DNA of 64,000 bases from Bradyrhizobium nanningense (GTDB lineage Bacteria > Pseudomonadota > Alphaproteobacteria > Rhizobiales > Xanthobacteraceae): positions 124,001 through 188,000 of the forward strand of contig NZ_LBJC01000030.1 of assembly GCF_004114535.1 (NCBI RefSeq), in the 5' to 3' direction. The notes under the pieces were generated by a model. The model saw only the letters and a program-made list of their open reading frames with translations. It did no database searches and was not told the DNA's origin. The position numbers were made by a program, and so were the translations under genes. Each line of letters starts with the position of its first letter. Within the stretch, counting starts at the first letter, position 1. Positions 8,683 to 23,764 of the stretch are shown here, one piece after another.

Positions 8683-9594
8683 CTATTTCAGGTAGCTCGC
8701 GAGATTGATGCTCAGGATCTTGGCGAGGGCCGAGTAGGACGCGGTGAGCTGCGCCTGGTAAGTCGAGAGCTGTGCCGTGATGGCGGCGACGTCGACGCCG
8801 GTGAGGTCATTCGACAGCGTTTCGGCATAGCTCTTGTAGTCGGTCTGGCGGGCGCTCGCCGTCTCGATCGAGGATGCCGCGTTCGAGAGCCTCGCCTGCA
8901 CCGCCGCGGTGTCGTCGAGTGCCGTGCCGGCAAGATCGAGCGCGCTGGAAATGTCCGAGGACGACAGCGTGGTGCTGTTCGCGACGAACTTCAATACGCG
9001 CATCACCTCCTCGAACGCCGAATTGTCGGCGGTGACGCCGTACGATACCGTCTCGTCCGAGGCAACGCGGACGGAGGCGATCTCGTCGTCTCCCTTGTAG
9101 TAGCTGGTGTCGGCCGCGGTGGTGGATCCCACGCCGGACGAGAAGCTGGTCAGATCGACCGGCGCCGTATCGGTCTTGCCGCCGGCAAAGACGTACCGGC
9201 CGTCATATTGCGTGTTCATCAGCGAGCCCATCTCCTGCAGCATCTGCTGGGCGGTGGTGATCACCGAATTGGTCTCGGTCGAGCCGCCGGTCGAGGCCGC
9301 GCTGAGCTGGGACCGGAGCTGCGTGAGAATGTCGGTCATCGAGCCGATGGCCGAATACATCACCTGGATCTTGCTGTCGGCGAGCGTCGCGGCATCGACA
9401 TAGGACTGCGCGCGCGTGACCGAGACCTGCAAGTTGACGACATGCTGCGCGTCCGAGCCGTAACCGCCGAAATCGGTCGCGATCACGCCCGTCGATTCCT
9501 GGATCTGCTTGTTGGCCATGACCGACTCCACGCGCATCGCGTCGGCGATCATCCTGTTCGACTGCGCGAAGGTGGCGACCCGCATCGCGACCAT
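8683..9594 (-). CDS. flgL: FlgL, hook-filament junction protein
   Basis: FlgL (HAP3) joins the hook to the flagellin filament. The 303-residue protein has a flagellin-like N-terminus (MVAMRVATFAQSNRMIADAM and later QIQESTGVIATDFGGYGSDA) and a C-terminal coiled region ending YSALAKILSINLASYLK, as in FlgL. The middle is Ser/Thr-rich. GGAGG lies 7 bases before the ATG. It is the last gene of the minus-strand module, 17 bases after flgK, the usual FlgK-FlgL order. Confidence 0.92.
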   Translation of the reverse strand: MVAMRVATFAQSNRMIADAMRVESVMANKQIQESTGVIATDFGGYGSDAQHVVNLQVSVTRAQSYVDAATLADSKIQVMYSAIGSMTDILTQLRSQLSAASTGGSTETNSVITTAQQMLQEMGSLMNTQYDGRYVFAGGKTDTAPVDLTSFSSGVGSTTAADTSYYKGDDEIASVRVASDETVSYGVTADNSAFEEVMRVLKFVANSTTLSSSDISSALDLAGTALDDTAAVQARLSNAASSIETASARQTDYKSYAETLSNDLTGVDVAAITAQLSTYQAQLTASYSALAKILSINLASYLK

Positions 9595-9611
9595 GAGCGT
9601 GCCTCCGGCCG

Positions 9612-11387
9612 TTACGACTGAACGGCGGACAACAGCGCCGAATACATGGTGTTGATGGCCTGGATCAGCGCGGACGCCGCCGTGTACTTGTTCTGAAGCG
9701 TGCTGAGCTTGGCGGATTCCTCGTCGAGGTTGACGCCGGATTGCGAGGACAACGAACTGGCATAGGTCGACTGCGCGGTTTCCTTCGCCGTGTAGGTGGC
9801 AGACGCATGCGACGCCTTGCTGGCCACGTCCGACACGATGGTCGAGGCATAGTCGGCCAGGGAGCCGGTGGTGGCCGCAAGGCCGCCGGTGGATGCGAAG
9901 GTCCGAGACCCCGTCAGCGCATCGTAGAAAGCGTTGACCACTGCGGCCGAGCCGGACGACAGCACGCTGCTGCCAACGGCCAGGGTCGACGAGGAATCCA
10001 GCGTCGCGAGCTGGATCTCGTTCGTCCCGGACAGGATCTTGGCGTTGACCGCGATATCCGCCGCGCTCGTTCCGGTCACGAGATCATTGAGACCGAAATA
10101 GTCCGAAAACCCTTCGCCCAAAGCTCCGACCGAGCTCGTCATCTCGTTGATGGCGACACCATTGCCCGAGCCGGTCGCCGCGATCGAGAGATGGCCATCT
10201 GCGTCGACCGATGCCGACAATCCGGAAATGCCGTTGATGGCGGTGACGAGATCGCCGACCGTGGAATAGGACGACAGGTCGAGATCGCCGTATGAGACCA
10301 GATTGCCGCTCTGGTCAGTGACGGCGATGCGCACCGTTCCGGTGGCGGACAGCGCCGTGCCGCTGCTGACGCTGGTCGTCCCGGTGAGGCTCGTCGGCGC
10401 CGGCACCGCGGACGCGCTGTTCGAGACGCTGTTCATCACTGATGCGAGCTGCTGGGCCAGCTGGTCGAGCTGGGACTGCGCGTCCGGCAGCGTCTCGTCG
10501 CGGAGCGTAATGAGCGCACCGATGTCTCCGCCCGATATCTGCGAGGTGATGTCGACGCCGTTCACTGTGATCGCGCTGAAGCCGCCGCTCGACGAGGAAC
10601 CGGCAGTGTACGTCGTCGACGCCGTCACATTGGAAGCGGCCGTATAGCTGATCGTATGCGCGGAGCTGTCGACCAGCGCCTGGCCGGACTTGGTGTAGAT
10701 CTGGATATCGCCGTTCGATGCGGTGAAGTAGTTGATGTTCATCTTCGAGGCGAGGTCCTGCAGCGCGGTGTTGCGCTGGTCCTCGAGGTCCGCGGTCGAC
10801 TGGCCCGCCGCCGCCGTCTGCTTGATCTGGGCGTTCAGATCCGAGATCTGCTGCAGGTCGGTATTGACGTCGTCGACCGCGGACGAGATGTCTTGGTCGG
10901 CGTCGGCGCGCAGCTTCTGGATGCCGCTCGACGTCTCCCGCAATTGGCTTGCGACATCGTCGAGTGCGCTGACGACGTTGGACTGCAGCGAGGCGCTGCT
11001 CGGCGAGCTCGCCAGCGACGACACCGCCGATTCGAGCGAGGCGATATTGTTGGCGAGCGAGGTGCCGGTTGACGAACTGTCACTGCTGCTGGTCGAGCCA
11101 TAGAGGTTTCCGAGCGAAGTCAGGTAGGTATTCGTGGTATCGGCCGATCCGAGCTCTGAGGTCGCGGCGATCAGCGATTTCAGCAGCAGCTTGTCGACGG
11201 TCGAGGTGATGCCCGTCACCGTGACGCCGGTGCCGACGCCGTTGGTCACGCTGCTCGACTGGTTCGCGGTCTTCGCGGTATAGCCCCTCGTGTCGGCATT
11301 CGAGATGTTCGACGACGTCACGCTGATCTGCACGGACGTGGCCGATAGCCCGCTGAAGGCGATGGATCGCGCGATATCGAGTGACAC
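9612..11387 (-). CDS. flgK: FlgK, hook-associated protein 1
   Basis: FlgK (HAP1) sits between hook and FlgL. The N-terminus SLDIARSIAFSGLSATSVQI then SNISNADTRGYTA is the rod/hook/HAP family D0 signature. The C-terminus AALIQAINTMYSALLSAVQS is the matching D0 helix. Length 591 is within the FlgK range. The body is rich in Ser, Thr and Ala with few Lys and no Cys, as usual for exported axial proteins. Translation starts at GTG with AGGAG close upstream. The preceding gene encodes a probable FlgN-type chaperone. Confidence 0.93.
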   Translation of the reverse strand: MSLDIARSIAFSGLSATSVQISVTSSNISNADTRGYTAKTANQSSSVTNGVGTGVTVTGITSTVDKLLLKSLIAATSELGSADTTNTYLTSLGNLYGSTSSSDSSSTGTSLANNIASLESAVSSLASSPSSASLQSNVVSALDDVASQLRETSSGIQKLRADADQDISSAVDDVNTDLQQISDLNAQIKQTAAAGQSTADLEDQRNTALQDLASKMNINYFTASNGDIQIYTKSGQALVDSSAHTISYTAASNVTASTTYTAGSSSSGGFSAITVNGVDITSQISGGDIGALITLRDETLPDAQSQLDQLAQQLASVMNSVSNSASAVPAPTSLTGTTSVSSGTALSATGTVRIAVTDQSGNLVSYGDLDLSSYSTVGDLVTAINGISGLSASVDADGHLSIAATGSGNGVAINEMTSSVGALGEGFSDYFGLNDLVTGTSAADIAVNAKILSGTNEIQLATLDSSSTLAVGSSVLSSGSAAVVNAFYDALTGSRTFASTGGLAATTGSLADYASTIVSDVASKASHASATYTAKETAQSTYASSLSSQSGVNLDEESAKLSTLQNKYTAASALIQAINTMYSALLSAVQS

Positions 11388-11405
11388 GGCTGGCTCCTCG
11401 GCTCG

Positions 11406-11903
11406 TCAGGCGCTGCGGCTGGTGCCGCTGGAAACCGCGCGAGCGGCAAGCCGGCCGGAGGCGCCATAGGGCGACACCGCCGCGATCTGCTCGCGGATCG
11501 CCTGCATGACGGCCTCGATCCGGCGGTTGCTGGCCTCGATCGCTGCCCGCAGGCGCAGCAGGTTCTCGTCCATCGCGGCGCGCAGATTCAGAATCCGCTC
11601 CAGCAGCTGTTCGCGCAGGATCCGGTCCCTGACGTTCAGGCTCGTGTTGCCCGCCGCGCATTCGGCCACCGTGCGCTCGAACATCTCCGCCAGGCGGTTC
11701 TTTTCGTCGACCTGTTTCAGGCGCGAGGCGGGCAGGCCCTTGGCGAGCTCTGCATTCTCCGCCGCGACCAGCGCGGTCAGCGTATCGATCAGCGTGATCA
11801 GCGACTCGATCCGCGCATCGCTCGTCCCGGTGACTTGGCTCTTGGCCGGATTCTTGGCCTGATTCTTGGCTTTGCTCTTGGTCTGGGCTGCGGTCATCGT
11901 CAT
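11406..11903 (-). CDS. Probable FlgN-type flagellar export chaperone
   Basis: The 165-residue protein is almost entirely predicted helical: RIESLITLIDTLTALVAAEN, LPASRLKQVDEKNRLAEMFE, then two further helices. This pattern (ValAlaAlaGluAsn, then a Lys/Arg-rich linker helix) resembles alphaproteobacterial FlgN, the chaperone of FlgK and FlgL. It lies immediately upstream of flgK (18 bases), the expected place. Unusual is a Lys-rich N-terminal tail, roughly residues 9-23, with repeated KxxAKN/AKS units. If not FlgN it is another cytosolic flagellar accessory protein. Confidence 0.6.
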   Translation of the reverse strand: MTMTAAQTKSKAKNQAKNPAKSQVTGTSDARIESLITLIDTLTALVAAENAELAKGLPASRLKQVDEKNRLAEMFERTVAECAAGNTSLNVRDRILREQLLERILNLRAAMDENLLRLRAAIEASNRRIEAVMQAIREQIAAVSPYGASGRLAARAVSSGTSRSA

Positions 11904-11909
11904 CGCCTT

Positions 11910-12170
11910 CTAATTATGCGGTTTGCCGCGGCCGGCCTGTGAGCTGCGCAAATAGGCGCCGATCGCGGTCGTCCTGGCGGTTGCCTGCTTCATCTGCCCT
12001 TCGATCTCCGCGCATTCGCGCAGGAGGCCGCGGCGGACCATCTCGAAATCGTCGATTAGCGCGAGCAGCTGCTTGCGGTCGCTACTCCCAACCGTTGCGG
12101 CTCGCGCCACCAACCGCCGCAACCGGCGCAGCAACGCTTCTCCGGCAGCGCTCGCGCTTTCACCGTGCAT
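11910..12170 (-). CDS. Hypothetical 86-aa helical protein within the flagellar module
   Basis: Not recognised. It begins MHGESASAAGEALLRRLRRL and continues with charged helices (SSDRKQLLALIDDFEMVRRG, then ECAEIEGQMKQATART). The start lies 3 bases after the flgE stop and the gene ends 6 bases before the FlgN-like gene, so it is translationally linked to both. Size and helicity fit a small export chaperone or FliT-like regulator, but no diagnostic motif was seen. Confidence 0.7.
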   Translation of the reverse strand: MHGESASAAGEALLRRLRRLVARAATVGSSDRKQLLALIDDFEMVRRGLLRECAEIEGQMKQATARTTAIGAYLRSSQAGRGKPHN

Positions 12171-12173
12171 CGA

Positions 12174-13439
12174 TCACCTCATGGCCGAGATCAGGGTGTC
12201 GTACATCTTGTTGACGGTGGAGATGACCTGGGACGCTGCGGAATAGGCCTGCTGCGCCGAGATCATGCTCGAGAACTGGCTGGAGGTGTCGGTGGTCGAG
12301 GACTCCAGCTCGCTGCCGTAGATCGTGCCCGCGCCATTCTCGCCGGAGGCCTGTAACGCAGCGTTGCCTGACGTCACTGTCGCCGAATAAATGCCGTTGC
12401 TGGACGGGGCCAGCCCGTTGGGATCGGCGAAGGTCGCGACCGCGATCTTGTAGATCGCGATCGTCTGGCCGTTGGAATAGGTGGCGTCGACGACGCCGTT
12501 CTTGCCGATCGAGATGCTGGACAGCTTGCCATAGGATAGACCGTCCGAATCGATGCTGGTGACGTTGACCGACGGTGTGGTCTCACCAGAGGCGTATTGG
12601 GTCAGGCCGTCGGTCCCTCCGACGGTGCCGAGATCGAGTGTGATCGCGCTGTCGGCGGCGCCGTCGGTCCAGCCGGTCACGGCAACGGTCGCGGGATCCG
12701 GGCTCGTGCTGGCGAGCGATCCGTCGCTGTTGAAGGTGATGTCGATCGTGCCCGAAGCCGTGCCGGTCGCAGTCGTCGTGTCCGAGGCCGACGTCGGATT
12801 GGCGAAACTGGCACTCCAGGTGTTGGTGCCGGTCTTGCTCCAGGTGATCTGCATCGTGTTCGCGGCACCGAGCGAATCGTAGACCGTCATCGAGCTGGTA
12901 TAGGTATCGCCGGTCGCGGCATCCGACGGCAGGTTCGCCGCGATCGTGGTCTTGGTGGTGGCGCTGCCGCTGGTCGAGGCGACCTGAGTGTTGATCGCTT
13001 CGAGATTGCTCGCCGATTCACTGCCGACGACGTTGCCGTCCGCGTCGGTACGCCAGCCCTCGAGGTAGTAACCGTTGTTCTCGATATAGCCGGCATTGTT
13101 GATCGTGAAGGCGCCGTTGCGGCTATAGGCGACGGTGCCGCCCGACGTGGCGTCGGTCACCACGAAGAAGCCCGAGCCCTGGATCGCGACATCGGTGGCG
13201 TTGGAGGTTGCCGCGAGCAGACCCTGCTGGGTGATGTTGGCGCGGCCCGAAACTGTGACGCCGCCCGAGGCGTAAGATGTCGTGTTGCTGGAGGCCGTCA
13301 CCAGCGCGTCGAACATCCCCGAGGTCGTCTTGTAGCCGGTCGTATCGGAGTTGGCGATGTTGTCGCTAATCATCGACAAGGACTGGCTCTGGGCGCTCAG
13401 CGCCGAGATCGCCGAGGACAATGCACCGGTGAGACTCAT
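12174..13439 (-). CDS. flgE: FlgE, flagellar hook protein
   Basis: FlgE polymerises into the hook. The 421-residue protein has the family N-terminus MSLTGALSSAISALSAQSQS followed by MISDNIANSDTTGYKTT, the FlgE/F/G mid-region GSGFFVVTD and YSRNGAFTINNAGYI, and the C-terminal QQAYSAASQVISTVNKMYDT helix. The middle is Ser/Thr/Ala-rich. A GGAG lies upstream of the ATG. It follows flgD, whose product caps the growing hook, and precedes two small helical genes and flgK. Confidence 0.93.
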   Translation of the reverse strand: MSLTGALSSAISALSAQSQSLSMISDNIANSDTTGYKTTSGMFDALVTASSNTTSYASGGVTVSGRANITQQGLLAATSNATDVAIQGSGFFVVTDATSGGTVAYSRNGAFTINNAGYIENNGYYLEGWRTDADGNVVGSESASNLEAINTQVASTSGSATTKTTIAANLPSDAATGDTYTSSMTVYDSLGAANTMQITWSKTGTNTWSASFANPTSASDTTTATGTASGTIDITFNSDGSLASTSPDPATVAVTGWTDGAADSAITLDLGTVGGTDGLTQYASGETTPSVNVTSIDSDGLSYGKLSSISIGKNGVVDATYSNGQTIAIYKIAVATFADPNGLAPSSNGIYSATVTSGNAALQASGENGAGTIYGSELESSTTDTSSQFSSMISAQQAYSAASQVISTVNKMYDTLISAMR

Positions 13440-13470
13440 GATGAAACTCCAAGGAAATCGGGACGAGAGA

Positions 13471-14133
13471 TCAGGACGTGACGCCGAGGATGTTGGCGGC
13501 GCTGACGGAGACGCCGTTCACCGTCAGCGAGGGCGTGGAGGTCGAGGTGTCGATGCCGGTCACCGTGCCGGTGACGGTCGTGTAATTGAGGACCGAGTTG
13601 CCAGCGGAATCGGTCGCGGTCACCGAGATGGTGTACTGGCCGCCATCCGAGAGCTGGTTGCCGCTGGAGTCCTTGCCGTCCCAGGTGAAGCTGTTGGAGC
13701 CGGAATTTCCGGTGCCGGTGCCGGTGTAGACAACGTTGCCGGAGGAATCCGAGATGCTGACCGAGACGTTCGAGGCGGCCGATGACAGCGAGTAGCCGAA
13801 GGTCGCCGAGCCGTTGCTCAAGGTTGACGTATCGGTCTTCGCCTCGACAGTGTGGCCGATATAGTTCACCGAGTTGAGCGTCACGAGGCTCGAGAACGAA
13901 CCCGCGAGCGAAGTGAGACTGGAGTTGATTGACTGCTGGGAGGTGAAATTGGCGTAGGAGGTGAGCTGATTGACGAGGTCGGTCGTCGAAGTCGCATTCA
14001 GCGGATCCTGGTTCTGAAGCTCGTTGACCAGCAGGTTCAGGAAGTCGCTGGACGTCAGTGTCGACGAGGACGACGTGCTCGACGATGACGTCATCGTCGC
14101 AGTCGTCGCGGAACTCGTGGCGGAAACGGTCAT
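13471..14133 (-). CDS. flgD: FlgD, hook-assembly scaffold protein
   Basis: FlgD caps the growing hook and is needed for FlgE assembly. The conserved N-terminal part FLNLLVNELQNQDPLNATST is clear (near residues 30-50), followed by a C-terminal FlgD Ig-like/FlgD_ig part with NSFTWDGKDSSGNQLSDGGQ and YTISVTATD. The start MTVSATSSATTATM is chosen at 14133 because GGAG lies 6 bases upstream; the reading frame is open further but lacks support. An extended run of Ser/Thr precedes the conserved core. Confidence 0.93.
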   Translation of the reverse strand: MTVSATSSATTATMTSSSSTSSSSTLTSSDFLNLLVNELQNQDPLNATSTTDLVNQLTSYANFTSQQSINSSLTSLAGSFSSLVTLNSVNYIGHTVEAKTDTSTLSNGSATFGYSLSSAASNVSVSISDSSGNVVYTGTGTGNSGSNSFTWDGKDSSGNQLSDGGQYTISVTATDSAGNSVLNYTTVTGTVTGIDTSTSTPSLTVNGVSVSAANILGVTS

Positions 14134-14340
14134 CAGAAACTCCGGCTTCCCTGCGCTGCCGGCGACTTGATGTTGGTCGGCGCGCTTGAAATCTGTGTGC
14201 TGATGAAACGGCTGGACGCGCGGATTCAGGCGGCGATTCGCGCGCGCGAGAACGGCTTTCGACACGGCAAAATCTGCCGCGTGCACCTACGACAAGAGCA
14301 ATGATGTGAAGCTGGTTTGAAGCCGCGGCGGCAGTGCACT

Positions 14341-14590
14341 CCCCTCGCCCCGCAAGCGCAGGGCAATCGCACATGGCGCTCAGCGCGACATGAGCGCGCG
14401 CCTCGTCCTCCGAGACGACCGCTTCGCGGTCTCATCAGGATGAGGCTCAGCAGCATTAGTCCTCGCTGATACTGGCGCCGCGCACCCGGTCCCCATCCTG
14501 AGGGCCCGCCAACGGCGGGCGTCTCGAAGGAAGGCCACAGGCGAGATCGCTCCCATGTGCGATTGCCCCGCCGCAAGCGGGGCGAGGCGA
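14341..14590. repeat. Nested palindromic repeat block upstream of flgD
   Basis: An outer pair (CGCCCCGCAAGCGCAGGGCA near 14347 and its near-complement TGCCCCGCCGCAAGCGGGGC near 14563) encloses two smaller hairpins, one at 14401-14450 (CGAGACGACCGCTTCGCGGTC) and one around 14494-14540 (CATCCTGAGGGCCCGCC and GGCGGGCGTCTCGAAGG). It fills most of the 480-base gap between flgD and the 90-aa gene; the remainder shows no gene. It shares words with the repeats at 615-772 and 56286-56390. Confidence 0.75.
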
Positions 14591-14613
14591 AGGAACGATC
14601 TCGGTAGGAGCCG

Positions 14614-14886
14614 TCAGCTCTCGGCCGTCTCGCCTTCCGTGCGGGGCTCGGCGGCCTCGCCCTTCATTTTGGCGGCAGCGGCGACGATGCGGTCGGCAAG
14701 GCCCGCGGGTGCGCGGACCGGCGGCGATGCGAGCGCACGGCGCAAGGTGCGCGCCTCGTCCAGCACAGCCTGCGCGGCGGGCGAGCATGCCAGCAGCTCT
14801 TCGGCGGGCGCACGCCGATCGTCGGGCCAGAGCGAGAGATCCTCGCCCAGCCGGTCGATCAGTTCCTCAAACTCGGTGACGTCCAT
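14614..14886 (-). CDS. 90-aa acidic protein, candidate sigma-factor regulator
   Basis: Sequence begins MDVTEFEELIDRLGEDLSLW, then PDDRRAPAEELLACSPAAQA, and ends in an Ala/Glu-rich tail. This layout (short helical protein with ...LWP...R..AE.LLA.S..A...L.EA) resembles small cytosolic proteins found beside ECF sigma genes in alphaproteobacteria, where they can act as anti-sigma or accessory factors. Here the ECF sigma factor heads the same gene module. This role is inference from resemblance and context. The gene stands between fliS and flgD with its own upstream gap, so it may have a separate promoter. Confidence 0.65.
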   Translation of the reverse strand: MDVTEFEELIDRLGEDLSLWPDDRRAPAEELLACSPAAQAVLDEARTLRRALASPPVRAPAGLADRIVAAAAKMKGEAAEPRTEGETAES

Positions 14887-14940
14887 CGTCTGCCGGTCCC
14901 GCCTTGGTCCGGCCCGTCATAAAGCATTGCGCGTGCGTCG

Positions 14941-14952
14941 GAAACCGGTTTC
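14941..14952. promoter_or_regulatory. 12-bp palindrome upstream of the 90-aa gene
   Basis: GAAACCGGTTTC is a perfect palindrome 55 bases before the 90-aa ATG. It could be an operator or part of a small hairpin (the neighbouring GGACCGG adds pairing). The surrounding 170-base gap between fliS and the 90-aa gene shows nothing else. Confidence 0.3.
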
Positions 14953-15056
14953 GGACCGGCTTTGGCGCCAAAAGGGCCCGGACCACTACGGAAACCAACG
15001 AAACGGACGGAAGACGTCGTCGGCCGCCCTCCCCGCATCGGAGAGAAACCACCGCC

Positions 15057-15485
15057 TCAGCCCCTGCGCGCCGAATCGGCCCGCGCAGCCATCCCGCCAC
15101 GCGCCGTCGTGTCGACGAATTCCCAGGCCTCCCGAAGCTCGGCGAGCCCTGCGATGATACGCCCGAAACTCGCACGCGCATGCGGGCGGCCGAACGCCTT
15201 GAGGCTTGCCAGGATCATCGCGTTGTAGGTCTGGAACACCTGTTCCGCCACCGCGCCGCCCTTGGCGAAGTCGAGATTGTGGCTCAGCCCGCGCAGGATT
15301 GCGGTCGCCCTCATCAGGTGTTCGTGCCCTTCCTCGAAGCGGCGCGCTTCCTGCGCGGCCAGCGACTTATGGAGAAAGGTGATCGCTCCGCCGAGCAGCA
15401 TCGAAATCGCCTTGAGTGGCGGCACGCTCGTTGCCGCGCCCCGATAGGCCTGGTTGGCCATGTACGCCATCTGTTTATGCATCAT
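15057..15485 (-). CDS. fliS: FliS, flagellin export chaperone
   Basis: FliS binds the flagellin C-terminus and prevents early polymerisation in the cytosol. The 142-residue protein has the family pattern: AYRGAATSVPPLKAISMLLG (Tyr and the hydrophobic helix 1), AITFLHKSLAAQEARRFEEG, RATAILRGLSHNLDFAKGGA with the conserved GG, then YNAMILASL and a final LAELREAWEFV. It follows fliD, matching the common fliC-fliD-fliS order. Several Met codons occur at the N-terminus (15485, 15482 and later), so the exact start is uncertain; the upstream site is weak. Confidence 0.88.
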   Translation of the reverse strand: MMHKQMAYMANQAYRGAATSVPPLKAISMLLGGAITFLHKSLAAQEARRFEEGHEHLMRATAILRGLSHNLDFAKGGAVAEQVFQTYNAMILASLKAFGRPHARASFGRIIAGLAELREAWEFVDTTARGGMAARADSARRG

Positions 15486-15506
15486 CGATCACTCTGTCTC
15501 ACACGA

Positions 15507-17189
15507 TCAATTGCTCGAGGAGCTGTTCAGCAGTGCCTTGAGGTAGGTCAGCGTGCTGTTGGCGCTCTCGATCGCCGCTTGGTACTTTGCATATTGGGTC
15601 TGGAGCTGCGACTGCAGCGTCGCGGCCGCACTGTTGATGTCGTCGACCTTCTGCTGAAGATCGTCATCGCGCGTCGTCAGATTGGTGATCAGCGTCTGCA
15701 GCACGCCGGTCGAGGACGAGTAATCCTTCGCGATCTGGTAGAGCTGCGTCGCAATGCCCGAGGTCGATGTCACGGTGATCGATTGGGAGGTCGACCCGCT
15801 GTAGGTGAAGGCCATGCCGGCGTAGATCGAACCGGCGGCGCCGATGATCGTGGTACCGCTGACCGTAAACAGCGTCGAATCGCCGCCGACCGATGCCGAG
15901 GCGAGGTTGCCGTCGGAATCGACCGTCAGATCCAGGGTGAAGGATTGCGGCGACGTCCCCGTGTTGACGACGCTGAGCTGACTCGACGAGGTCGTCGTCT
16001 GTGCCGACAACAGCTTGGTCACGCCGCTCAGATTCGTGCTCAGGATGTCCGACAGTGTCGAGGTGTCGAGCTCCAGCTCGTTGCTCTCGTTGAACGACAG
16101 ACCGAGATCGGCCATGGTCATGCCGCCGACCGTGCTGTTCAGGGCATTCTGGAGCGCATCCATGATGTTGCGCATCGTTCCGTCGCCAAACAAGACCGCG
16201 CTCGAATCCGCCGTGCCGTCGGTTGCGGTCGCCTGCTGGGCGACGACCTCGTCGCGAAAGGCGTTGTAATTGGTGACGAACGTCTCCAGAGCCGATTGGA
16301 TCTGGCTGGTATCGGTCTCGATGCTGATGTTCAGCGACGTTCCGTCCGGCGTCGCCTGGAGCAGGCTGAAGGTGACCCCGGTCAGCACGTCGGTGACGTC
16401 GTTGGTATCGCGGGTCATCGAGATGCCGTCGAGCGTAAATTCGGCCGACTGCGCCTCCTGGATGACGTCGGAGAAGCTTCCCGAGCTGTCGGTCACACCC
16501 AGTTGGTTCATGATGTCGTCGCCGGACGTGCTGGAATAGCTGATATCGGCCGCATCCTCGGTGCTGGTCAACACCATCTGGTACGAGGTGCTGGACACCT
16601 GCACGATGGAGGCCTGGACATTGGTCGTCGAGGTCTGGGCGTTGATGGCATCGACGACGTCCTGGAGCGACATCGTGCTGGTGACGGTGATGTCGGACGT
16701 AGTACCGCCCTCCAGACCAATGGAAAACGAGCCGGAATAGCCGAGCTCGTCGGTCTGACTCGATTGCGAAGTGCCGGCAACCTTCTGCGCGGCGGCGAGC
16801 TGGCTGATCGTCAGCGTGTGGTCGCCGGTCGCAGCGCCGCTCTTGATCGTCATGGAGAGCGCCGAGGAGGCGCTGACATGCCCGGTCGAGCTGATGCTCG
16901 CGGCACGCGTGGCAAACGCGCTGGTGGACAACGAGTTGACCACTGCGGTCGACAGCGACGCCAACCCCGAATACAGCGTCTTCAGATCGCTCTGGAGCGT
17001 CTGATAGGCCGAGATCTTGGCCTCGTTGTTCGTGATCGTGGTCGAGATCGTATCCGCCTGCGCGGTCTTCGCGTCGACGGCTGACTGGATCAGCGCCGAC
17101 CAGTCGATGCTGCTCGAATTGGTGGTCCCGCTCGTGGTGACGGACACACCCGAACTTGTGCTGCTGGTGCTCGAACTGACGGAAGCCAC
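15507..17189 (-). CDS. fliD: FliD, filament cap protein
   Basis: FliD forms the filament-tip cap that folds flagellin into place. The 560-residue protein has the N-terminal SSIDWSALIQSAVDAKTAQA coiled segment, the FliD_N core (SALSMTIKSGAATGDHTLTI then SQLAAAQKVAG), LQDVVDAINAQ, the AEFTLDGISMTRDTNDVTDV and LTGVTFSL motif, and the C-terminal coiled coil LTTRDDDLQQKVDDINSAAA. These are strong FliD marks. Translation likely begins at GTG 17189. The protein is extremely rich in Ser and Thr. A hairpin separates it from fliC. Confidence 0.92.
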   Translation of the reverse strand: MASVSSSTSSTSSGVSVTTSGTTNSSSIDWSALIQSAVDAKTAQADTISTTITNNEAKISAYQTLQSDLKTLYSGLASLSTAVVNSLSTSAFATRAASISSTGHVSASSALSMTIKSGAATGDHTLTISQLAAAQKVAGTSQSSQTDELGYSGSFSIGLEGGTTSDITVTSTMSLQDVVDAINAQTSTTNVQASIVQVSSTSYQMVLTSTEDAADISYSSTSGDDIMNQLGVTDSSGSFSDVIQEAQSAEFTLDGISMTRDTNDVTDVLTGVTFSLLQATPDGTSLNISIETDTSQIQSALETFVTNYNAFRDEVVAQQATATDGTADSSAVLFGDGTMRNIMDALQNALNSTVGGMTMADLGLSFNESNELELDTSTLSDILSTNLSGVTKLLSAQTTTSSSQLSVVNTGTSPQSFTLDLTVDSDGNLASASVGGDSTLFTVSGTTIIGAAGSIYAGMAFTYSGSTSQSITVTSTSGIATQLYQIAKDYSSSTGVLQTLITNLTTRDDDLQQKVDDINSAAATLQSQLQTQYAKYQAAIESANSTLTYLKALLNSSSSN

Positions 17190-17214
17190 TTTGCGTATCG
17201 GTCCCTGGTAAGAA

Positions 17215-17239
17215 GCGGGCCGGCATCACGCCGGCCCGC
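17215..17239 (-). terminator. Strong hairpin between fliC and fliD
   Basis: GCGGGCCGGC and GCCGGCCCGC form a perfect 10-bp stem with a 5-base loop, 12 bases after the fliC stop. On the minus strand it is followed by TTCTT. It probably acts as a partial terminator or mRNA stabiliser, giving more flagellin than cap protein. Confidence 0.75.
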
Positions 17240-17250
17240 CCGTCTCGTCA

Positions 17251-18075
17251 TCAGCCCAGCAGCTTGAGCAGGTACTGGGGCATCTGGTTCGCCGCGGCCA
17301 GCGCCGACACGGCAGCCTGGGTCTTCACTTCCGCGGAGGAGAGCTTGGACTGCTCGGCCGCGATGTCGACGTCCTTGATCGCCGAGTTGGCCGATTGCAG
17401 GTTCTCGGTCTGGGTCGAGATCGAGTCCGCGCTGAAGTTGAAGCGGGATTCCTGGGCACCGATGCTGGCGCGGGCGGCGGAGACGGTGTCGATCGCCGTA
17501 TCAAGCGTAGTCAGCGCCGAGGTCGCGTCCGACAGCGAGCTGACGTCGAGCGAGGACACGCCGAGCGAGGAGGCCGTCAGGCTCGTGAGCGTGATGGTGA
17601 TGGTATCCGAGCCCGAGGAGCCGACCAGCACCGAGACGCCGGAGGCGAACACGCTGGAGCCGTCGAGCAGGCTCTGGCTGGAGTAACGGGTGCCGGACGC
17701 GATCGAATCGATTTCGCTCGTGAGCTGCGTGAATTCCGAGTTGATATAGGCGCGGCTGGAGTCGGTCGTGGTGCCCGACGCCGATTCCGAGGCCAGCGAC
17801 TTCATGCGGGCGAGAATGTCGGAGATGTTCGAGGCGCCGCCGTCGGCGGTCTGCAGGATCGCGGTGGCCTGCGAGGCGTTGGTCGCGGCCTGCTGCAGCG
17901 TGGTGACGTCCGAGGAGATGCGGGTGGAAATCGCAAGACCGGCGGCGTCGTCGGAAGCCGACGTGATGCGCGAACCGCTCGACAGCTTCGAGAGCGAAGA
18001 GGTCTCCTGCGATGAGTTGATGTTGAGGTAACGAACCGCGGCATTGGCGGCGGTATTGGTGTTGATTGCGGGCAT
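17251..18075 (-). CDS. fliC: Flagellin
   Basis: Filament subunit. The 274-residue protein is short for a flagellin, with conserved D0/D1 ends and a small variable middle. The N-terminus MPAINTNTAANAAVRYLNIN followed by SLSKLSSGSRITSASDDAAG and LAISTRI is diagnostic. The C-terminus SAIKDVDIAAEQSKLSSAEV then MPQYLLKLLG is the usual D0 helix. The middle (SGVSVLVGSSGSDTITITLT) is Ser/Thr-rich. AGGAG lies close before the ATG. It is the first structural gene after the sigma factor and probably has its own promoter in the 144-base gap. Confidence 0.95.
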   Translation of the reverse strand: MPAINTNTAANAAVRYLNINSSQETSSLSKLSSGSRITSASDDAAGLAISTRISSDVTTLQQAATNASQATAILQTADGGASNISDILARMKSLASESASGTTTDSSRAYINSEFTQLTSEIDSIASGTRYSSQSLLDGSSVFASGVSVLVGSSGSDTITITLTSLTASSLGVSSLDVSSLSDATSALTTLDTAIDTVSAARASIGAQESRFNFSADSISTQTENLQSANSAIKDVDIAAEQSKLSSAEVKTQAAVSALAAANQMPQYLLKLLG

Positions 18076-18219
18076 TGAAAGCTCCTGTGCTGATGGGCAT
18101 GGCGTGCCGCATCGTTGAAATCGACTTACGACGACGCGGACCGCAGCCCCGTCCGTTCGCTCAAACGACGGAGTGCACGGAGATCAGGCGCGAAAGCTTT
18201 CGCTGGCGCGATTTTATGG

Positions 18220-18918
18220 TTAGCAGTCGGTAAACGCGGTGCGGATGTCGCGCTCGTGCTTGCGCAGGAGCTGGCGAAGCTGCTGGCGTCCGCGCTTGAG
18301 CAGCGACTCGACGGCGGCCACCGTCGTGTCCATCACCTGAGCGATCTCGCCGTTGCTCATGTTCTCATGGTACGAGAAGATCACCGCGATGCGCTGCTGC
18401 TCGGGCAGGCGCTGCATCGCCAGTTCCAGCATGTCGTTCAGCTCGTTACGCTCGATGATCTCGACCGCGCCGGGCTGGCCGTCGGCGACCTCCGGCACGG
18501 TGTCGACGTTCTCGTTGCGCGGCTTGCGGCGCAGATCGATGCAGCGATTGGAAATGACACGGTACAGCCAGGTCGAGAACTTGGCGCGGCCATGCTGCCA
18601 GCGTCCACGATGGCTCCAGATCTTGAGCATGGTGTCCTGCACCACGTCCTCGGCGTCCGCCGCGTTGCCGGCGATGCGCAGCGCAATTGCATAGGCGCGA
18701 TCGATGTGGCGCTCGACAAGCATACGGAAGGCAACCTCGTCGCCGGTCGCGAGCTTGTCGAGCAGCTCGCTGTCTTCATCATAGACGACGTCGTCGGCGA
18801 CAGGCGCGCCGTCCGGCGCGAGCGGCACTGAGGGCATCATCGGCACCGCCGCTTCGGCCGACACCGCTGTCGCACTCCCGGCCTCGGCGGGCGCCATGAC
18901 ATCAGCAGCGTAACTCAT
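18220..18918 (-). CDS. ECF-type RNA polymerase sigma factor
   Basis: A 232-residue sigma-70 family factor with regions 2 and 4 only. Region 2 is visible as GDEVAFRMLVERHIDRAYAI, NAADAEDVVQDTMLKIWSHR and KFSTWLYRVISNRCIDLRRK; region 4 as MQRLPEQQRIAVIFSYHENM, SNGEIAQVMDTTVAAVESLL and KRGRQQLRQLL. The N-terminal 50 residues are Ala/Pro-rich and unusual. I chose ATG 18918 because GGAGG lies 7 bases upstream; an earlier start at 18987 would add 23 residues. It is not a FliA-type factor (no region 3). Position at the head of the fliC-to-flgL module suggests it controls that module, which is inference. Confidence 0.88.
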   Translation of the reverse strand: MSYAADVMAPAEAGSATAVSAEAAVPMMPSVPLAPDGAPVADDVVYDEDSELLDKLATGDEVAFRMLVERHIDRAYAIALRIAGNAADAEDVVQDTMLKIWSHRGRWQHGRAKFSTWLYRVISNRCIDLRRKPRNENVDTVPEVADGQPGAVEIIERNELNDMLELAMQRLPEQQRIAVIFSYHENMSNGEIAQVMDTTVAAVESLLKRGRQQLRQLLRKHERDIRTAFTDC

Positions 18919-19431
18919 CCCGCAACCTCCAACCCGCAATGCCGGGGGCGCACATGCCACACGGCTTCCAGGCGTTGAACGGGCCAATGAAGCGATCCAG
19001 GCGAAGATTTTTTGTTGTTTTTCAAGATGTTAGCCGGTCAATTTTGCCGAGTGGCGGGCAACAACTGCCGACCGCGCGCGAACTTCGCGCATCGATCCTG
19101 CAATCATCACATCGTCTCGCGCCATGGCGGATCATCCATCCTGAACAGATGCATGTGGGAGAAAACGCAGACATTACTCGGCACTAGGTGATCGAACGCG
19201 ACGCGCGCGTGGCGCATCAAGAAGCGATTGTTTCCGAGCGTGACTGAACGAGAGACGACTTCCGCACTCGGCAATTTTTTCCGAATCACCTTTTTCGAAC
19301 CTAGCGATTTTTTTGAATCTGTCAGTCGCGACGAACGCGATTTTGAATCGCGCGTGAAGTTTTTTTGCATTTGTGGCGCCTGACCCGACGCATGCGCACG
19401 TTAATCATCCCAGTGGGCGGGGAATTGCAGC
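18919..19431. promoter_or_regulatory. AT-rich divergent regulatory region with T-tracts and a palindrome
   Basis: This 513-base gap separates the sigma gene (minus) from the HAD gene (plus). It has T-tracts at 19275-19280, 19291-19295, 19308-19314 and 19360-19366, rare in this GC-rich window. CGCGATT-TTG-AATCGCG at 19336-19352 is a 17-bp palindrome, and GCGATTTTTTTGAATC at 19305-19320 is a related half. Nearer the sigma gene the minus strand carries TTGACC and TTGAAAAACAAC in an A-rich stretch around 19010-19050. It probably holds promoters for both directions; no convincing gene lies inside. Confidence 0.55.
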
Positions 19432-21924
19432 ATGAAGTTAGCTACGGTCGGCGCGGAGCGCCGCGCGCAAATTGTTTCTGCTTGGTCGTTCGATGTTTTC
19501 GATACATTTCTGTTGCGCGCATGCACGACGCCGGACGGCGTATTTGAAAGGACTTACGAGCTATCCGGCATTTCACGACCTTGTCCGAATGTTTCCGCGA
19601 GTTTCGTTCAACATCGCATCCAGGCCGAATCGCGTGCGCGCCGGACTGCGAAGGAGAAACGCGGCGCGAGCGAAGTGCGCATCGACGAGATCTATTCCTG
19701 TTTTCCATTCAAGCTGTTCGGTCTGTCACGAACCGACCTGAATGATCTGGTCGAAGCCGAGTTCACCGCCGAGGTCGAGCTTTGCCGCGTCAACCCGGAC
19801 ATGCTCAAGCAATATCTGGACATGAAACGCGCCGGCCATCGCGTCGGATTCATCTCGGACACCTATTGGGACTCCGGCCGGCTGGCCCGGCTGCTGCGGG
19901 CTTGCCGTCCCGGGCTGACCTGGGACTTCCTCTATGCGTCCTGCGACCATGGCAGCGGCAAGAGCGAAGCGTTGTTCGCCACCTACGTCTCCGAGCAGGG
20001 CATTGACGCCGGTGCTTCCTTTCACGTCGGCGACAATGAGAAGGCCGACATCAAGGGGGCGAGGCGCCACGGCATTCATCCCCGCTATTATCCGCAGGCG
20101 ACTGCGCAGCTCGCCTCGAAGTTTCAGCGCGAGACGGCGCTGTTCGAGCTGCTGTGCGGTGGCGCGCCGTCAAGGCTCGATCATGGCGCACGAACGCTGC
20201 GGCGCATGGTCGCCGCGCGCAGCGCCAAGAGGTCGCAAGCCTTCCACCTCGGGCTGACCGTGCTCGGCCCGGCGATGGCCGCGTTCGACGCCTTCGTGAC
20301 GCGGCGCTGCGAGGAGATTGCGGGTCCCGGCCGGAAGGTCGCGCTCGGCTTTCTCGGCCGCGACGGTTTCCTGTCGCACCGGATCCGGCAGGAGCTACGT
20401 GACGCCACATCGGCCTATTTCGAGATCAACCGCCGCGTCAGCCTGATCGCCTCGGCCGATACGATGCAGCCACTCGTCGATCTGCTCGGCAAGGTACTCA
20501 AGATCGACGCGCCGACCTTCCACGACATGGTGAAGATCATGCCGGCGAAAGTCGCCGCATTCTTTGCCGGCTTTCCGGACGGGATTGCCTCCGGCGCAGA
20601 GCTAGCCGAGGCGCTTCCCGGATTGATCGATCCGGCTGAGATCGTCGCGCTCGCCGCGGGCTTGCGCGCCAGGCTGCTCGCCTATCTCCGCCAGACCATC
20701 CCCGGCTTCGACGACTGCACCGACCTCGTCATCGCCGATCTCGGCTATTCCGGCAGCGTGCAGAAGGCGCTGCGCCGCATCTTCGACCTCGAAGGCATCG
20801 AGATCCGCCTCCACGGCGCTTATCTGATGTCGCTCGACGACGCCTTCGACGACCTCGCCGAGCAGGACAGCGCGGCGGGCTTCATTTCCGACCTCGTCGT
20901 CACGCCTCACGTCAAGCGCATGCTGATCCGCAATGTCGCGTTGCTGGAGCAGGCCTGCTGCTCAGCGGACGGCTCGGTGTGCGATTACGACGGCGGCGCG
21001 GTGCTGCGCGAAATCAATCCGCGTCCTCCGGAGCAGGTGGCGATTGCCGCGGAGCTCCAGGCCGGCGCACTGGCTTTCGCAGGCAGCGCGGACGGTGTCG
21101 CCCGCGACTACGACCTCGATCCCTATGCCGCACCCGATGTCGCGGCGAGCTGGTGCGCGGCGACGCTGGGCCGGCTTCTGCTGCTGCCTGACGATGACGA
21201 GCTCGCGCTGCTCGGCACGTTGAAACACGACGTCAATCTCGGCACTCACGCGCTCGCGCCGCTGCTCGATGGGCCGTTCGTGCGCAACCAGATCACCGCC
21301 CGCGGCCTCTCGGCAGCCTGCACGGCCGCCGCGCCGCCAATGTGGCTCGCGGGCAGTTTCGCCGGCCTGTCGCCATCCTATAATTATCTCTACGTGCTGT
21401 TCGGCGCCAACCGCCTGCCTGCTGACGTCTTTGAGGAACGGCCCGCCGGCCCAGTCCAGGTCGGACTGTTCCGCGCCGACGGCGGCGCAGCGCTGGAGGG
21501 GGTGACCGTTCACCGCACCGGGCTTGGCGAGCTGCGTCTGCGCATTCCCCTGTCGCGTCGCATGGCGGTCACCATGATCGCACTGCCGCTGGCGAAATTT
21601 GCGCCCGAGGGCCTGCTTCACGGCGTGACCCTGCAGCGGGGCGACGACGTTCGTGACGCCGCCGAGAGCCAGGAGGTTGTCGCCATCGCGACTGACGGGC
21701 TGATCTACGCCGGCGTGCAGCGGAATGGCGGCCACTATCGCGCCGAGACTGAAGACGGTTGCCTGCTGATCCCGGTCAGCCCGATGACGCAGGAGATCGC
21801 GGTCTACTCCGTCGCGATCACCCCGGCTCCAAATAGTGCGCCTGATCGCGCCGCCCCGGCCGTTGAAATCCCAGGGCTTACGAGGGGGCATGGAATTGCG
21901 GGACGCGACGCAGGCGAATCTTGA
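19432..21924 (+). CDS. HAD-superfamily protein of COG5610 type, large two-domain
   Basis: The first about 220 residues form a HAD phosphatase-like domain: FDVFDTFLLR with Asp 21 and Asp 24, motif II ISDTYWD near 141, Lys near 177 in GSGKSEAL, and HVGDNEKADIKGA near 198. The second half carries LGFLGRDGFLSHRI and VIADLGYSGSVQKALRRIF, the pattern of proteins of the COG5610 group found near glycosyltransferases in surface-polysaccharide and protein-modification clusters. The last about 300 residues are not recognised. It overlaps the next gene by 35 bases. Substrate is unknown; a role in modifying filament or surface glycans is inferred from the neighbours. Confidence 0.75.
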   Translation: MKLATVGAERRAQIVSAWSFDVFDTFLLRACTTPDGVFERTYELSGISRPCPNVSASFVQHRIQAESRARRTAKEKRGASEVRIDEIYSCFPFKLFGLSRTDLNDLVEAEFTAEVELCRVNPDMLKQYLDMKRAGHRVGFISDTYWDSGRLARLLRACRPGLTWDFLYASCDHGSGKSEALFATYVSEQGIDAGASFHVGDNEKADIKGARRHGIHPRYYPQATAQLASKFQRETALFELLCGGAPSRLDHGARTLRRMVAARSAKRSQAFHLGLTVLGPAMAAFDAFVTRRCEEIAGPGRKVALGFLGRDGFLSHRIRQELRDATSAYFEINRRVSLIASADTMQPLVDLLGKVLKIDAPTFHDMVKIMPAKVAAFFAGFPDGIASGAELAEALPGLIDPAEIVALAAGLRARLLAYLRQTIPGFDDCTDLVIADLGYSGSVQKALRRIFDLEGIEIRLHGAYLMSLDDAFDDLAEQDSAAGFISDLVVTPHVKRMLIRNVALLEQACCSADGSVCDYDGGAVLREINPRPPEQVAIAAELQAGALAFAGSADGVARDYDLDPYAAPDVAASWCAATLGRLLLLPDDDELALLGTLKHDVNLGTHALAPLLDGPFVRNQITARGLSAACTAAAPPMWLAGSFAGLSPSYNYLYVLFGANRLPADVFEERPAGPVQVGLFRADGGAALEGVTVHRTGLGELRLRIPLSRRMAVTMIALPLAKFAPEGLLHGVTLQRGDDVRDAAESQEVVAIATDGLIYAGVQRNGGHYRAETEDGCLLIPVSPMTQEIAVYSVAITPAPNSAPDRAAPAVEIPGLTRGHGIAGRDAGES

Positions 21925-23215
21925 CCAGTTGCTGCAAGCCGGCGGCATCAAGCTCGGCCGGGCCCAGCACGACCGCCTGGGCTGGCTGGTCGGCCAGTAC
22001 GGCGCGCCGACGCTCGATGGCGTCCCGGACGGGCGGCACGACGGCGTCATCATTCTCAAGGAGCCACTGAGCGGCGCGGCGGCCGAGCTGTTCTACCGTT
22101 CGCTCAATCCAGCCTGCGCCGTCGTCATTCCCAGAAGCGAGAACCCCGGCTTCGATTTCCTCAAGTCCAAGCTGACCGAGTTCGGCACCGTTGGCCCCTG
22201 CGGAGCCGACGGCCCGCACGAGATGTGGTGGGGCGGCATCGGCTGGTCGAGATTCTTCGCCGCCGCCGATACCTCCCCCCTCCGGCCGCGGATCGTCTCC
22301 TGCCATCCGCGCGGCGGCGACGAGGCCGCGCCGCGCCGCCTCCGCCATTCGCTCGAACGCCTGCAGCTCGACTGTCATATCGAACCGATCGACACCCAGC
22401 TAGACGACCGCCTGCTCTGCTTCGAGAAAGCGGAGTTCATGGTGCGGATGTGGAACAAGTATCGCGAGCCGCTGCTGTTCGTCGATGCCGGTGCGACCTT
22501 GCGCGGCGCGCCGCTGCTTCCCGCCTTCCTCGGCTGCGACGTCGCCCTGCACAAGTGGAATCGCTGGGAGATGTCGGCGCGCACGCTCTATCTCGGCCGC
22601 TCCGCCCATGCGGAACGGCTGCTTCACGCTTGGCAGCAACTTGCGGCCGCCTATCCCGCGGTCTGGGAGGGCTATTTGCTGGATCAGGCCTGGAGCCTGA
22701 CCTCGTCGCAGGTGCCGCTCGATACCGTATGGCTGCCGCGCACCTATCACGCACTGCAAGGCGACCTCGGAGCCTCGCGCGCCACGATCCTGCATGACCA
22801 GCAGACGACGACGCTGGAGCTCGGTCCCGATCCCGGCTTTGCCGGCATCGTGCGCGCGGCCCGCCGCGCCGGCCGCACCGGCGCCCGCGACGCCTTCATG
22901 GTGATGACCTCGAAGGCCGAGACCAGAGGCGGCATCGCCGTGATCCTGCGCGACGTCTCGGCCAGCGACGCGGGTGCGGTCGCCGCGACCGTCGAGGCCG
23001 TGACCGGCGCCTATGCCGCCGATTGCGGCGGATACGGCCGGCTCGAGCTGTCGCTCTGCGCCTGGCAGGACGACGTCGGCGTCGCGCGTGAAGCCGCCGG
23101 TCTGGCGCGATACCGCATCCTGGAGATCGCTCCGGGGCAGCGCATCGCCAACGACTTCTTCGCCGCACACGCGTCCGAGGATGCGGTCATGACCGCACGC
23201 CAACTTTTCCCCTGA
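21890..23215 (+). CDS. Possible nucleotide-sugar glycosyltransferase
   Basis: A 441-residue protein starting MELRDATQANLDQLLQAGGI; the ATG at 21890 follows AGGGGG and overlaps the upstream gene, indicating translational coupling. Residues around 190-215 read KYREPLLFVDAGATLRGAPL, similar to the (D/V)-Asp-x-Asp-type region of GT-A nucleotide-diphospho-sugar transferases, followed by CDVALHKWNRWEM and EGYLLDQAWSL, which match the later part of that fold. The N-terminal 90 residues and the C-terminal 130 residues are not recognised. Donor and acceptor are unknown. Alternative: another surface-associated enzyme of similar fold. Confidence 0.5.
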   Translation: MELRDATQANLDQLLQAGGIKLGRAQHDRLGWLVGQYGAPTLDGVPDGRHDGVIILKEPLSGAAAELFYRSLNPACAVVIPRSENPGFDFLKSKLTEFGTVGPCGADGPHEMWWGGIGWSRFFAAADTSPLRPRIVSCHPRGGDEAAPRRLRHSLERLQLDCHIEPIDTQLDDRLLCFEKAEFMVRMWNKYREPLLFVDAGATLRGAPLLPAFLGCDVALHKWNRWEMSARTLYLGRSAHAERLLHAWQQLAAAYPAVWEGYLLDQAWSLTSSQVPLDTVWLPRTYHALQGDLGASRATILHDQQTTTLELGPDPGFAGIVRAARRAGRTGARDAFMVMTSKAETRGGIAVILRDVSASDAGAVAATVEAVTGAYAADCGGYGRLELSLCAWQDDVGVAREAAGLARYRILEIAPGQRIANDFFAAHASEDAVMTARQLFP

Positions 23216-23227
23216 GGGATATCAGAG

Positions 23228-23764
23228 ATGCTCAAGACCATCATCCTGCTCACCGACACCGTGCAACAGCAGCAGCCGCTGGCCAATCTGCTCCGCGAGC
23301 ATAATCGCGACCTCGCCTTCTGCTCGGCGCTCCGCGCATCGGACCTCGGCGCCATCGACCTGAACGTGCTGAGCGAGGCGCGGCTGGTATCTTTCGCCGC
23401 CGACGTCGCCGTGCCCGAGAAATTCCTGCTCAAGCTCGGCTATGGTGCCTACAAATTCTACGCCGCGCCGACGCAATATCCGGGCCTGCCGTCCGCGCCC
23501 GACGAGAGCGATGACGATCCGCGCTGCTACTCCGTGATCGCGCAGTCGATGACGATCTGGCCGGATTTCAAGAAGGTCGTTGGCCTCGAGACCGTCACGA
23601 TCCCTGTTGGCACCGTTCCTGCCGAGCGCGAGCGGCTGGTGTTCTCACGCCTCGCTCACCTGTTCTGGGGCATGTCGCACATGATCGCCGGCGAGGCGAC
23701 GGATCTTCCGGGGATCATCGGATCCAGCGAGAGCCAGCGTCCGACGCTCGCGATGATGAATTGA
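23228..23764 (+). CDS. Formyltransferase-like protein with altered active-site motif
   Basis: The 178-residue protein starts MLKTIILLTDTVQQQQPLAN and has LSEARLVSFAADVAVPEKFL and then YGAYKFYAAPTQYPGLPS. This resembles the formyltransferase fold where the last segment usually reads like YNFHPGPPEYPG, with catalytic Asn and His. Here Lys and Tyr replace them, so it may bind rather than catalyse, or use other residues. It starts 12 bases after the glycosyltransferase-like gene and ends the operon. Family assignment rests on one stretch and is moderate to weak. Confidence 0.5.
   Translation: MLKTIILLTDTVQQQQPLANLLREHNRDLAFCSALRASDLGAIDLNVLSEARLVSFAADVAVPEKFLLKLGYGAYKFYAAPTQYPGLPSAPDESDDDPRCYSVIAQSMTIWPDFKKVVGLETVTIPVGTVPAERERLVFSRLAHLFWGMSHMIAGEATDLPGIIGSSESQRPTLAMMN

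Follow-up and report, generated by a model that had tools for sequence, protein, structure and literature searches.

A distal flagellar module with an RpoE6-type sigma factor in Bradyrhizobium nanningense, a candidate alternative hook-filament set for the subpolar basal body

The genome of Bradyrhizobium nanningense (8.29-Mb draft, 82 contigs, rated 100% complete) contains a module of 11 flagellar and associated genes within the stretch of 64,000 nucleotides analysed here (G000:C73:124001-188000, hereafter the window). The module lies on the minus strand (8683-18987) and encodes, in the order of transcription, an extracytoplasmic function (ECF) sigma factor, FliC, FliD, FliS, a 90-aa protein, FlgD, FlgE, an 86-aa protein, a FlgN-like protein, FlgK and FlgL (Table 1). 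With a probability of roughly 60%, we propose that it equips the subpolar basal body with a second, alternative hook and filament, controlled by a sigma/anti-sigma pair. The products would form the distal half of a flagellum: the hook (FlgD/FlgE), the junction (FlgK/FlgL with the FlgN-like chaperone), the flagellin FliC with its chaperone FliS, and the cap FliD. Profile matches confirmed the seven fli and flg genes and the sigma gene listed in an initial annotation of this DNA and, as stated there, none of the 11 genes encodes a rod, ring, export or motor component. A complete outer set without a motor of its own is thus probably mounted on an existing one.

Three hook sets stand against two flagellar basal bodies, lateral and subpolar, in this genome. 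The lateral set forms a single cluster (C73, 195-226 kb) with its own FlgE, FlgK, FlgL and flagellins, and the subpolar set is scattered over contigs C61, C63, C72 and C80. Thirteen proteins matched the domain Flg_bb_rod, namely three FlgE, two FlgK, two FlgF, two FlgG, one FlgB, two FlgC and one orphan rod-like protein. NCBIfam models added two proteins that this domain had not matched, a lateral FlgK as the third of its kind (TIGR02492, 357 bits) and a second FlgB on C61 (NF004654, 193 bits). The domain FlgE_D2 (PF07559) detects two of the three hook proteins and misses the 755-aa subpolar FlgE, and hooks were therefore recounted with the latter as query. FlgI is present in two copies. Among three FlhA-like proteins, one is FlhA (C72; TIGR01398, 905 bits), one lies in the lateral cluster on C73, and the third (C43) is the type III secretion protein SctV (TIGR01399, 968 bits, cut-off 692), and YscJ is encoded about 9 kb from it. 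Both type III secretion genes are located within G000:C43:1-20000. The orphan rod-like gene (G000:C54:132157-132606; Flg_bb_rod and Flg_bbr_C) lies away from other flagellar genes. A genome-wide search for a third basal body with Flg_bb_rod, FHIPEP and FlgI revealed neither a third FlgI nor a third FlgF/FlgG pair or flagellar FlhA. Gene calls for the basal-body clusters and for the neighbourhoods of relatives were made with a simple composition-based script rather than a trained gene finder.

The lateral and subpolar flagella described for Bradyrhizobium (PMC6406911, available in part) are both represented in this genome and supply its basal bodies. According to that report, the subpolar system occurs in all 128 Bradyrhizobium genomes examined there, and the B. 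japonicum group (70 genomes) is the only one with both systems. Each system has its own FlgE, FlgK and FlgL, so that the module constitutes a third distal set, one not treated in the available part of PMC6406911. As an option, the initial annotation had considered that the module might supply the filament of a dispersed third flagellar set. Although subpolar genes are dispersed in the genus (PMC6406911), the draft genome is split into 82 contigs and a rod-like gene stands alone on C54, a complete third flagellum is highly improbable: the genome, rated complete, has two copies each of FlgI, FlgF, FlgG and flagellar FlhA, and 15 other genomes combine one FlgI with both hook types. Nor do basal-body or export genes lie directly beyond the module. 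The nearest ones found belong to the lateral cluster, which lies on this contig at a distance of about 52 kb, outside the window, and has hook and filament genes of its own.

The distribution of the module points to the subpolar basal body. In a family sample of 149 genomes, 25 contain the module FliD and 126 contain FlgI; the module occurs in 25 of the 126 genomes with FlgI and in none of the 23 without (one-sided P 0.01, ignoring relatedness). Seven of the 25 module genomes have two FlgI copies and 18 have one, and the single FlgI is of the subpolar type in all 18 (71-93%, versus 50-55% to the lateral type). A subpolar FlgE was present in 22 of the 25, including 15 of the 18 with a single FlgI. 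Three genomes (G326, G406 and G433) contain extra subpolar-like FlgE copies or fragments, and the number of hooks is hence not always that of the basal bodies plus one. The proximity of the lateral cluster on the same contig would suit a hook and filament built on the lateral basal body; with 18 of 25 module genomes holding a single, subpolar-type FlgI, and with one genome (G310) holding two FlgI and no module, such a mounting is highly improbable.

The strongest evidence that the module hook probably fits the subpolar basal body comes from the gene content of genus g257. All three of its genomes (G327, G353 and G374) have subpolar-type basal-body genes, and the module FlgE and FlgK are the only hook and first junction proteins among the matches listed. 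Flg_bb_rod matches were inspected in 24 genomes, covering six of six in G327, five of five in G353 and four of six in G374; the two others of G374 are probably FlgB and FlgC, which are present in its contig stretch. In G374, the Flagellin_N matches are the module FliC and FlgL only, and an additional short second flagellin occurs in G327 and G353. In a tree of 26 rows, the g257 FlgE affiliates with the module clade (support 83/80). As the module FlgE and FlgK are the sole ones seen in these genomes, the module hook probably fits the subpolar basal body. The suggestion in the initial annotation that a shared basal body carries an alternative filament under separate sigma control thereby gains support, and it extends further, since a hook and a junction likewise form part of the module.

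A literature search on this cluster, including the locus tags of strains USDA 110 and 110spc4, yielded, judging by the titles listed, no report beyond PMC12826043 (available in part), which describes the RpoE6-Asf6-FliC2 cluster of Azospirillum brasilense and names synteny with Bradyrhizobium and Rhodopseudomonas. Identities to five Azospirillum loci are 49-51% for the sigma factor, 56-58% for FliC, 40-43% for FliD and 45-48% for the 90-aa protein, and on these sequence comparisons the module is the Bradyrhizobium form of that cluster. In both, an RpoE6-type sigma gene adjoins genes for a small FliC, FliD and FliS, an Asf6 gene is present, and the promoter type of fliC is alike. Unlike the Azospirillum cluster, the window has the sigma gene at the head of the cluster with a motif of its own, and FlgN-like and 86-aa genes between flgE and flgK. 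In Azospirillum, RpoE6 drives fliC2 and Asf6 binds RpoE6; overexpression of RpoE6 increased FliC2, FliD, FliS, FlgL and FliE, and deletion of asf6 led to more FliC2, a thinner filament and impaired motility, with the 100-kDa band of polar flagellin disappearing (PMC12826043).

The 90-aa gene is taken as an orthologue of the anti-sigma factor gene asf6 because of its identity to the gene following the sigma gene in the five Azospirillum loci. The 86-aa gene has no reliable family. No Pfam family matched the 90-aa protein of the window. The assignment to Asf6 also draws on an alignment of 29 sequences. The predicted structure consists of four helices (mean pLDDT 84.5), and the top four of 161 chains compared were all ECF anti-sigma factors, namely RsiW, RslA, RseA and the partner of SigK (Z 5.4 to 3.8), with an unrelated phage protein ranking next (3.7); Foldseek gave E above 2. 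The model may hence weakly resemble the anti-sigma domains of ECF systems, a likeness that is suggestive only. In some orthologues (for example those of L054-L057, L063, L064, L073, L123, L126 and L135) a hydrophobic C-terminal stretch looks by eye like a membrane anchor; others, that of the window included, stop before it. At L116 (G353, about 10127-11395), a transposase-like open reading frame, judged by eye, occupies the space between flgD and fliS where asf6 is found in relatives.

FliA (sigma-28) includes sigma region 3. In the sigma factor of the module, the profile search matched regions 2 and 4 and no others, and its identity as FliA was rejected. As in the enteric FliA-FlgM system (discussed in PMC12826043), a sigma/anti-sigma pair would govern filament genes; unlike there, the sigma factor belongs to the ECF type, with two domains, and the promoter motif recurs at the hook operon.

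RpoE6-type promoter motifs were scanned in the 200 nucleotides (nt) upstream of the genes in 81 loci, with the pattern CGCC[AT]G-N16/17-CGT[TG] and a looser form. The strict pattern precedes fliC in 77 of the 81 loci (loose, 81 of 81), flgD in 65 of 75 (loose, 71 of 75) and the sigma gene in 61 of the 71 loci where this gene leads the cluster, but in none of the ten where it follows fliC. About 0.3 was expected from shuffles for each of these three strict counts; most of the loci are closely related and the counts are therefore not independent. Upstream of the eight other genes of the module, the strict motif was found in 0 of 62 to 81 loci. A common -35/-10 pattern, which the initial annotation had proposed to look for, was accordingly present at three genes, those for FliC, FlgD and the sigma factor, and absent before the 90-aa gene. 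The fliC motif of the window fits the Azospirillum promoter type CGCCAG-N16-CGTGAG. For Azospirillum, the available part of PMC12826043 gives a promoter before fliC2, none found before fliD or rpoE6, and none reported before flgD; in the window, the motif also stands upstream of flgD and of a divergent operon, and the flgD motif recurs in four Azospirillum-type loci (L076, L080, L081 and L122). A loss of the sigma and hook promoters in g257 was considered and rejected, looser forms persisting at flgD (L116) and at the sigma gene (L120).

Gene order is conserved as well. The identical order of 11 genes occurs in 61 of the 65 non-Azospirillum loci among L016-L085, so that the module is more than a chance assembly. 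The exceptions are L036 and L049, where the records end, L060, with no hook operon in its flank although the record continues, and L068, where the match to the 86-aa gene is absent. L060 (12201-21587) and L133 contain a filament half with sigma factor and Asf6, followed in L133 by an FlhB-like piece and FliP. Most of the relatives that FliD retrieved from named genomes are Bradyrhizobium. In a class sample of 289 genomes, 57 had any FliD match, and among the better matches, whose neighbourhoods were inspected, six genomes (G032, G041, G179, G220, G029 and G288) had sigma factor, fliC, fliD and hook genes together. The occurrence of the module in just 25 of 149 genomes might suggest a decaying relic without function. 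All of its genes in the window are open, its proteins are 47-99% identical across Bradyrhizobium loci and its promoter motifs are kept at near-fixed positions, which renders a relic very unlikely.

In the proposed mechanism, Asf6 would hold the RpoE6-type sigma factor off. Once released, the sigma factor would transcribe fliC-fliD-fliS, in all likelihood together with asf6, as well as its own gene, the operon from flgD to flgL and the divergent operon for a haloacid dehalogenase (HAD)-like protein, and a second hook and filament would be made, replacing the usual subpolar ones or competing with them. We infer here the use of all four motifs by the sigma factor, the placement of the hook on the subpolar rod, the swap and a signal behind it. 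The fuller picture, in which one basal body would serve two interchangeable hook-junction-filament sets switched by the ECF pair, the divergent operon might modify the new filament, and g257 would retain the alternative hook only, is more tentative and somewhat short of even odds. Switching between flagellins is known, as are dual flagella. If the proposal holds, the whole outer half including the hook would be exchanged on one motor, which would be unusual, and RpoE6 and Asf6 would obtain a concrete role, the signal and the purpose of this pair being left open in the available part of PMC12826043. New in our case are the three hook sets beside two basal bodies, the distribution of the module with the subpolar FlgI, the assignment of the 90-aa gene to Asf6 and the pattern of the motifs.

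Several observations weigh against an exchangeable hook and filament. In the view of the Azospirillum authors, the ordinary polar filament contains FliC2 as a minor flagellin, and their fliC2 mutant had slightly thinner filaments and no detectable swimming defect (PMC12826043). The data at protein level are those from Azospirillum. No Asf6 was found at the locus, to which the search was confined, in any of the three g257 genomes, and the switch is hence not universal. The module is patchy even within the genus of the window (three of nine genomes), L060 and L133 have no hook operon beside the filament half, and the support of the module FlgE clade is modest. Genome-wide, one form of the motif, which misses the flgD and divergent-operon sites, gave 34 sites versus 28 for the reversed pattern. 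Without clear genome-wide enrichment, the weight of the motif rests on its conserved positions, mostly in close Bradyrhizobium relatives. Of 30 genome-wide motif loci, 24 had their site inside called genes and two of the other six were those of the module itself; no wider regulon is therefore claimed. The mutant phenotype and the two isolated filament halves agree with a module FliC that acts as a minor flagellin in the ordinary subpolar filament, its hook and junction genes being little used. We consider this unlikely, given that hook, junction and cap genes are kept together from Azospirillum to Bradyrhizobium, that the four Azospirillum-type loci share the flgD motif, and that the module hook is the sole one seen in g257.

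Table 1 Features of the module and the divergent operon in the window
Feature	Position	Strand	Basis or remark
ECF sigma factor, RpoE6 orthologue, two-domain	18220..18918	-	NF009190, 427 bits, cut-off 303
fliC, small flagellin, 274 aa, FliC2 orthologue	17251..18075	-	identity to Azospirillum loci
fliD, filament cap	15507..17189	-	
fliS, flagellin export chaperone	15057..15485	-	PF02561, 3e-19
90-aa anti-sigma gene, Asf6 orthologue by sequence	14614..14886	-	45-48% to gene after sigma, five Azospirillum loci
flgD, hook cap	13471..14133	-	likely start 14133; longest open reading frame begins 14286
flgE, 421 aa, third hook protein of the genome	12174..13439	-	NF004242, 644 bits
86-aa gene	11910..12170	-	no reliable family; orthologues matched in 62 of 81 loci
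FlgN-like gene, 165 aa	11406..11903	-	weak profile matches
flgK, first junction protein	9612..11387	-	TIGR02492, 345 bits
flgL, second junction protein	8683..9594	-	NF006489, 411 bits
RpoE6-type motif of sigma gene, CGCCTG-N16-CGTTCA	18976..19003	-	85 nt before likely ATG
RpoE6-type motif of fliC, CGCCTG-N17-CGTTTG	18162..18190	-	
RpoE6-type motif of hook operon, CGCCTG-N16-CGTTTC	14205..14232	-	99 nt before likely flgD ATG
RpoE6-type motif of divergent operon, CGCCTG-N16-CGTTAA	19377..19404	+	
830-aa protein, N-terminal HAD-like part, first divergent gene	19432..21924	+	TIGR02252, 4e-8, below cut-off
459-aa protein	21836..23215	+	no family found; glycosyltransferase-like by eye only
178-aa protein	23228..23764	+	no reliable family; Pfam match at chance level

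The FlgN-like gene of the initial annotation is recognizable in its family and less so in the window. The FlgN profile matched 16 of 25 aligned family members (best 2.4e-4) and the HrpB7 profile 11 of 25 (best 2.5e-5). The window protein itself stays below the cut-off of both: FlgN gave 13.3 bits (cut-off 30.5) and E 0.12, and HrpB7 scored better with E 0.0064. Among structure matches, FlgN (2fup) reached Z 9.3, level with unrelated helical bundles, and Foldseek returned no match with E below 0.3.

The divergent three-gene operon (19432-23764; 19377-23764 with its motif) shares the motif of the module and has no mention in the available part of PMC12826043. The scan for this operon used a slightly wider pattern and included 30 nt of coding sequence. 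Of the 81 loci, 62 carry the first gene, and the motif was found upstream of it in 61 of these. The HAD-like part of the 830-aa protein is related to residues 384-590 of the capsule polymerase Bcs3 (1.3e-7). Since FliC2 of Azospirillum is reported to be likely glycosylated (PMC12826043), a role of the operon in filament modification may be proposed as a guess. Homologues of the first gene also occur near the module in L133 and L135.

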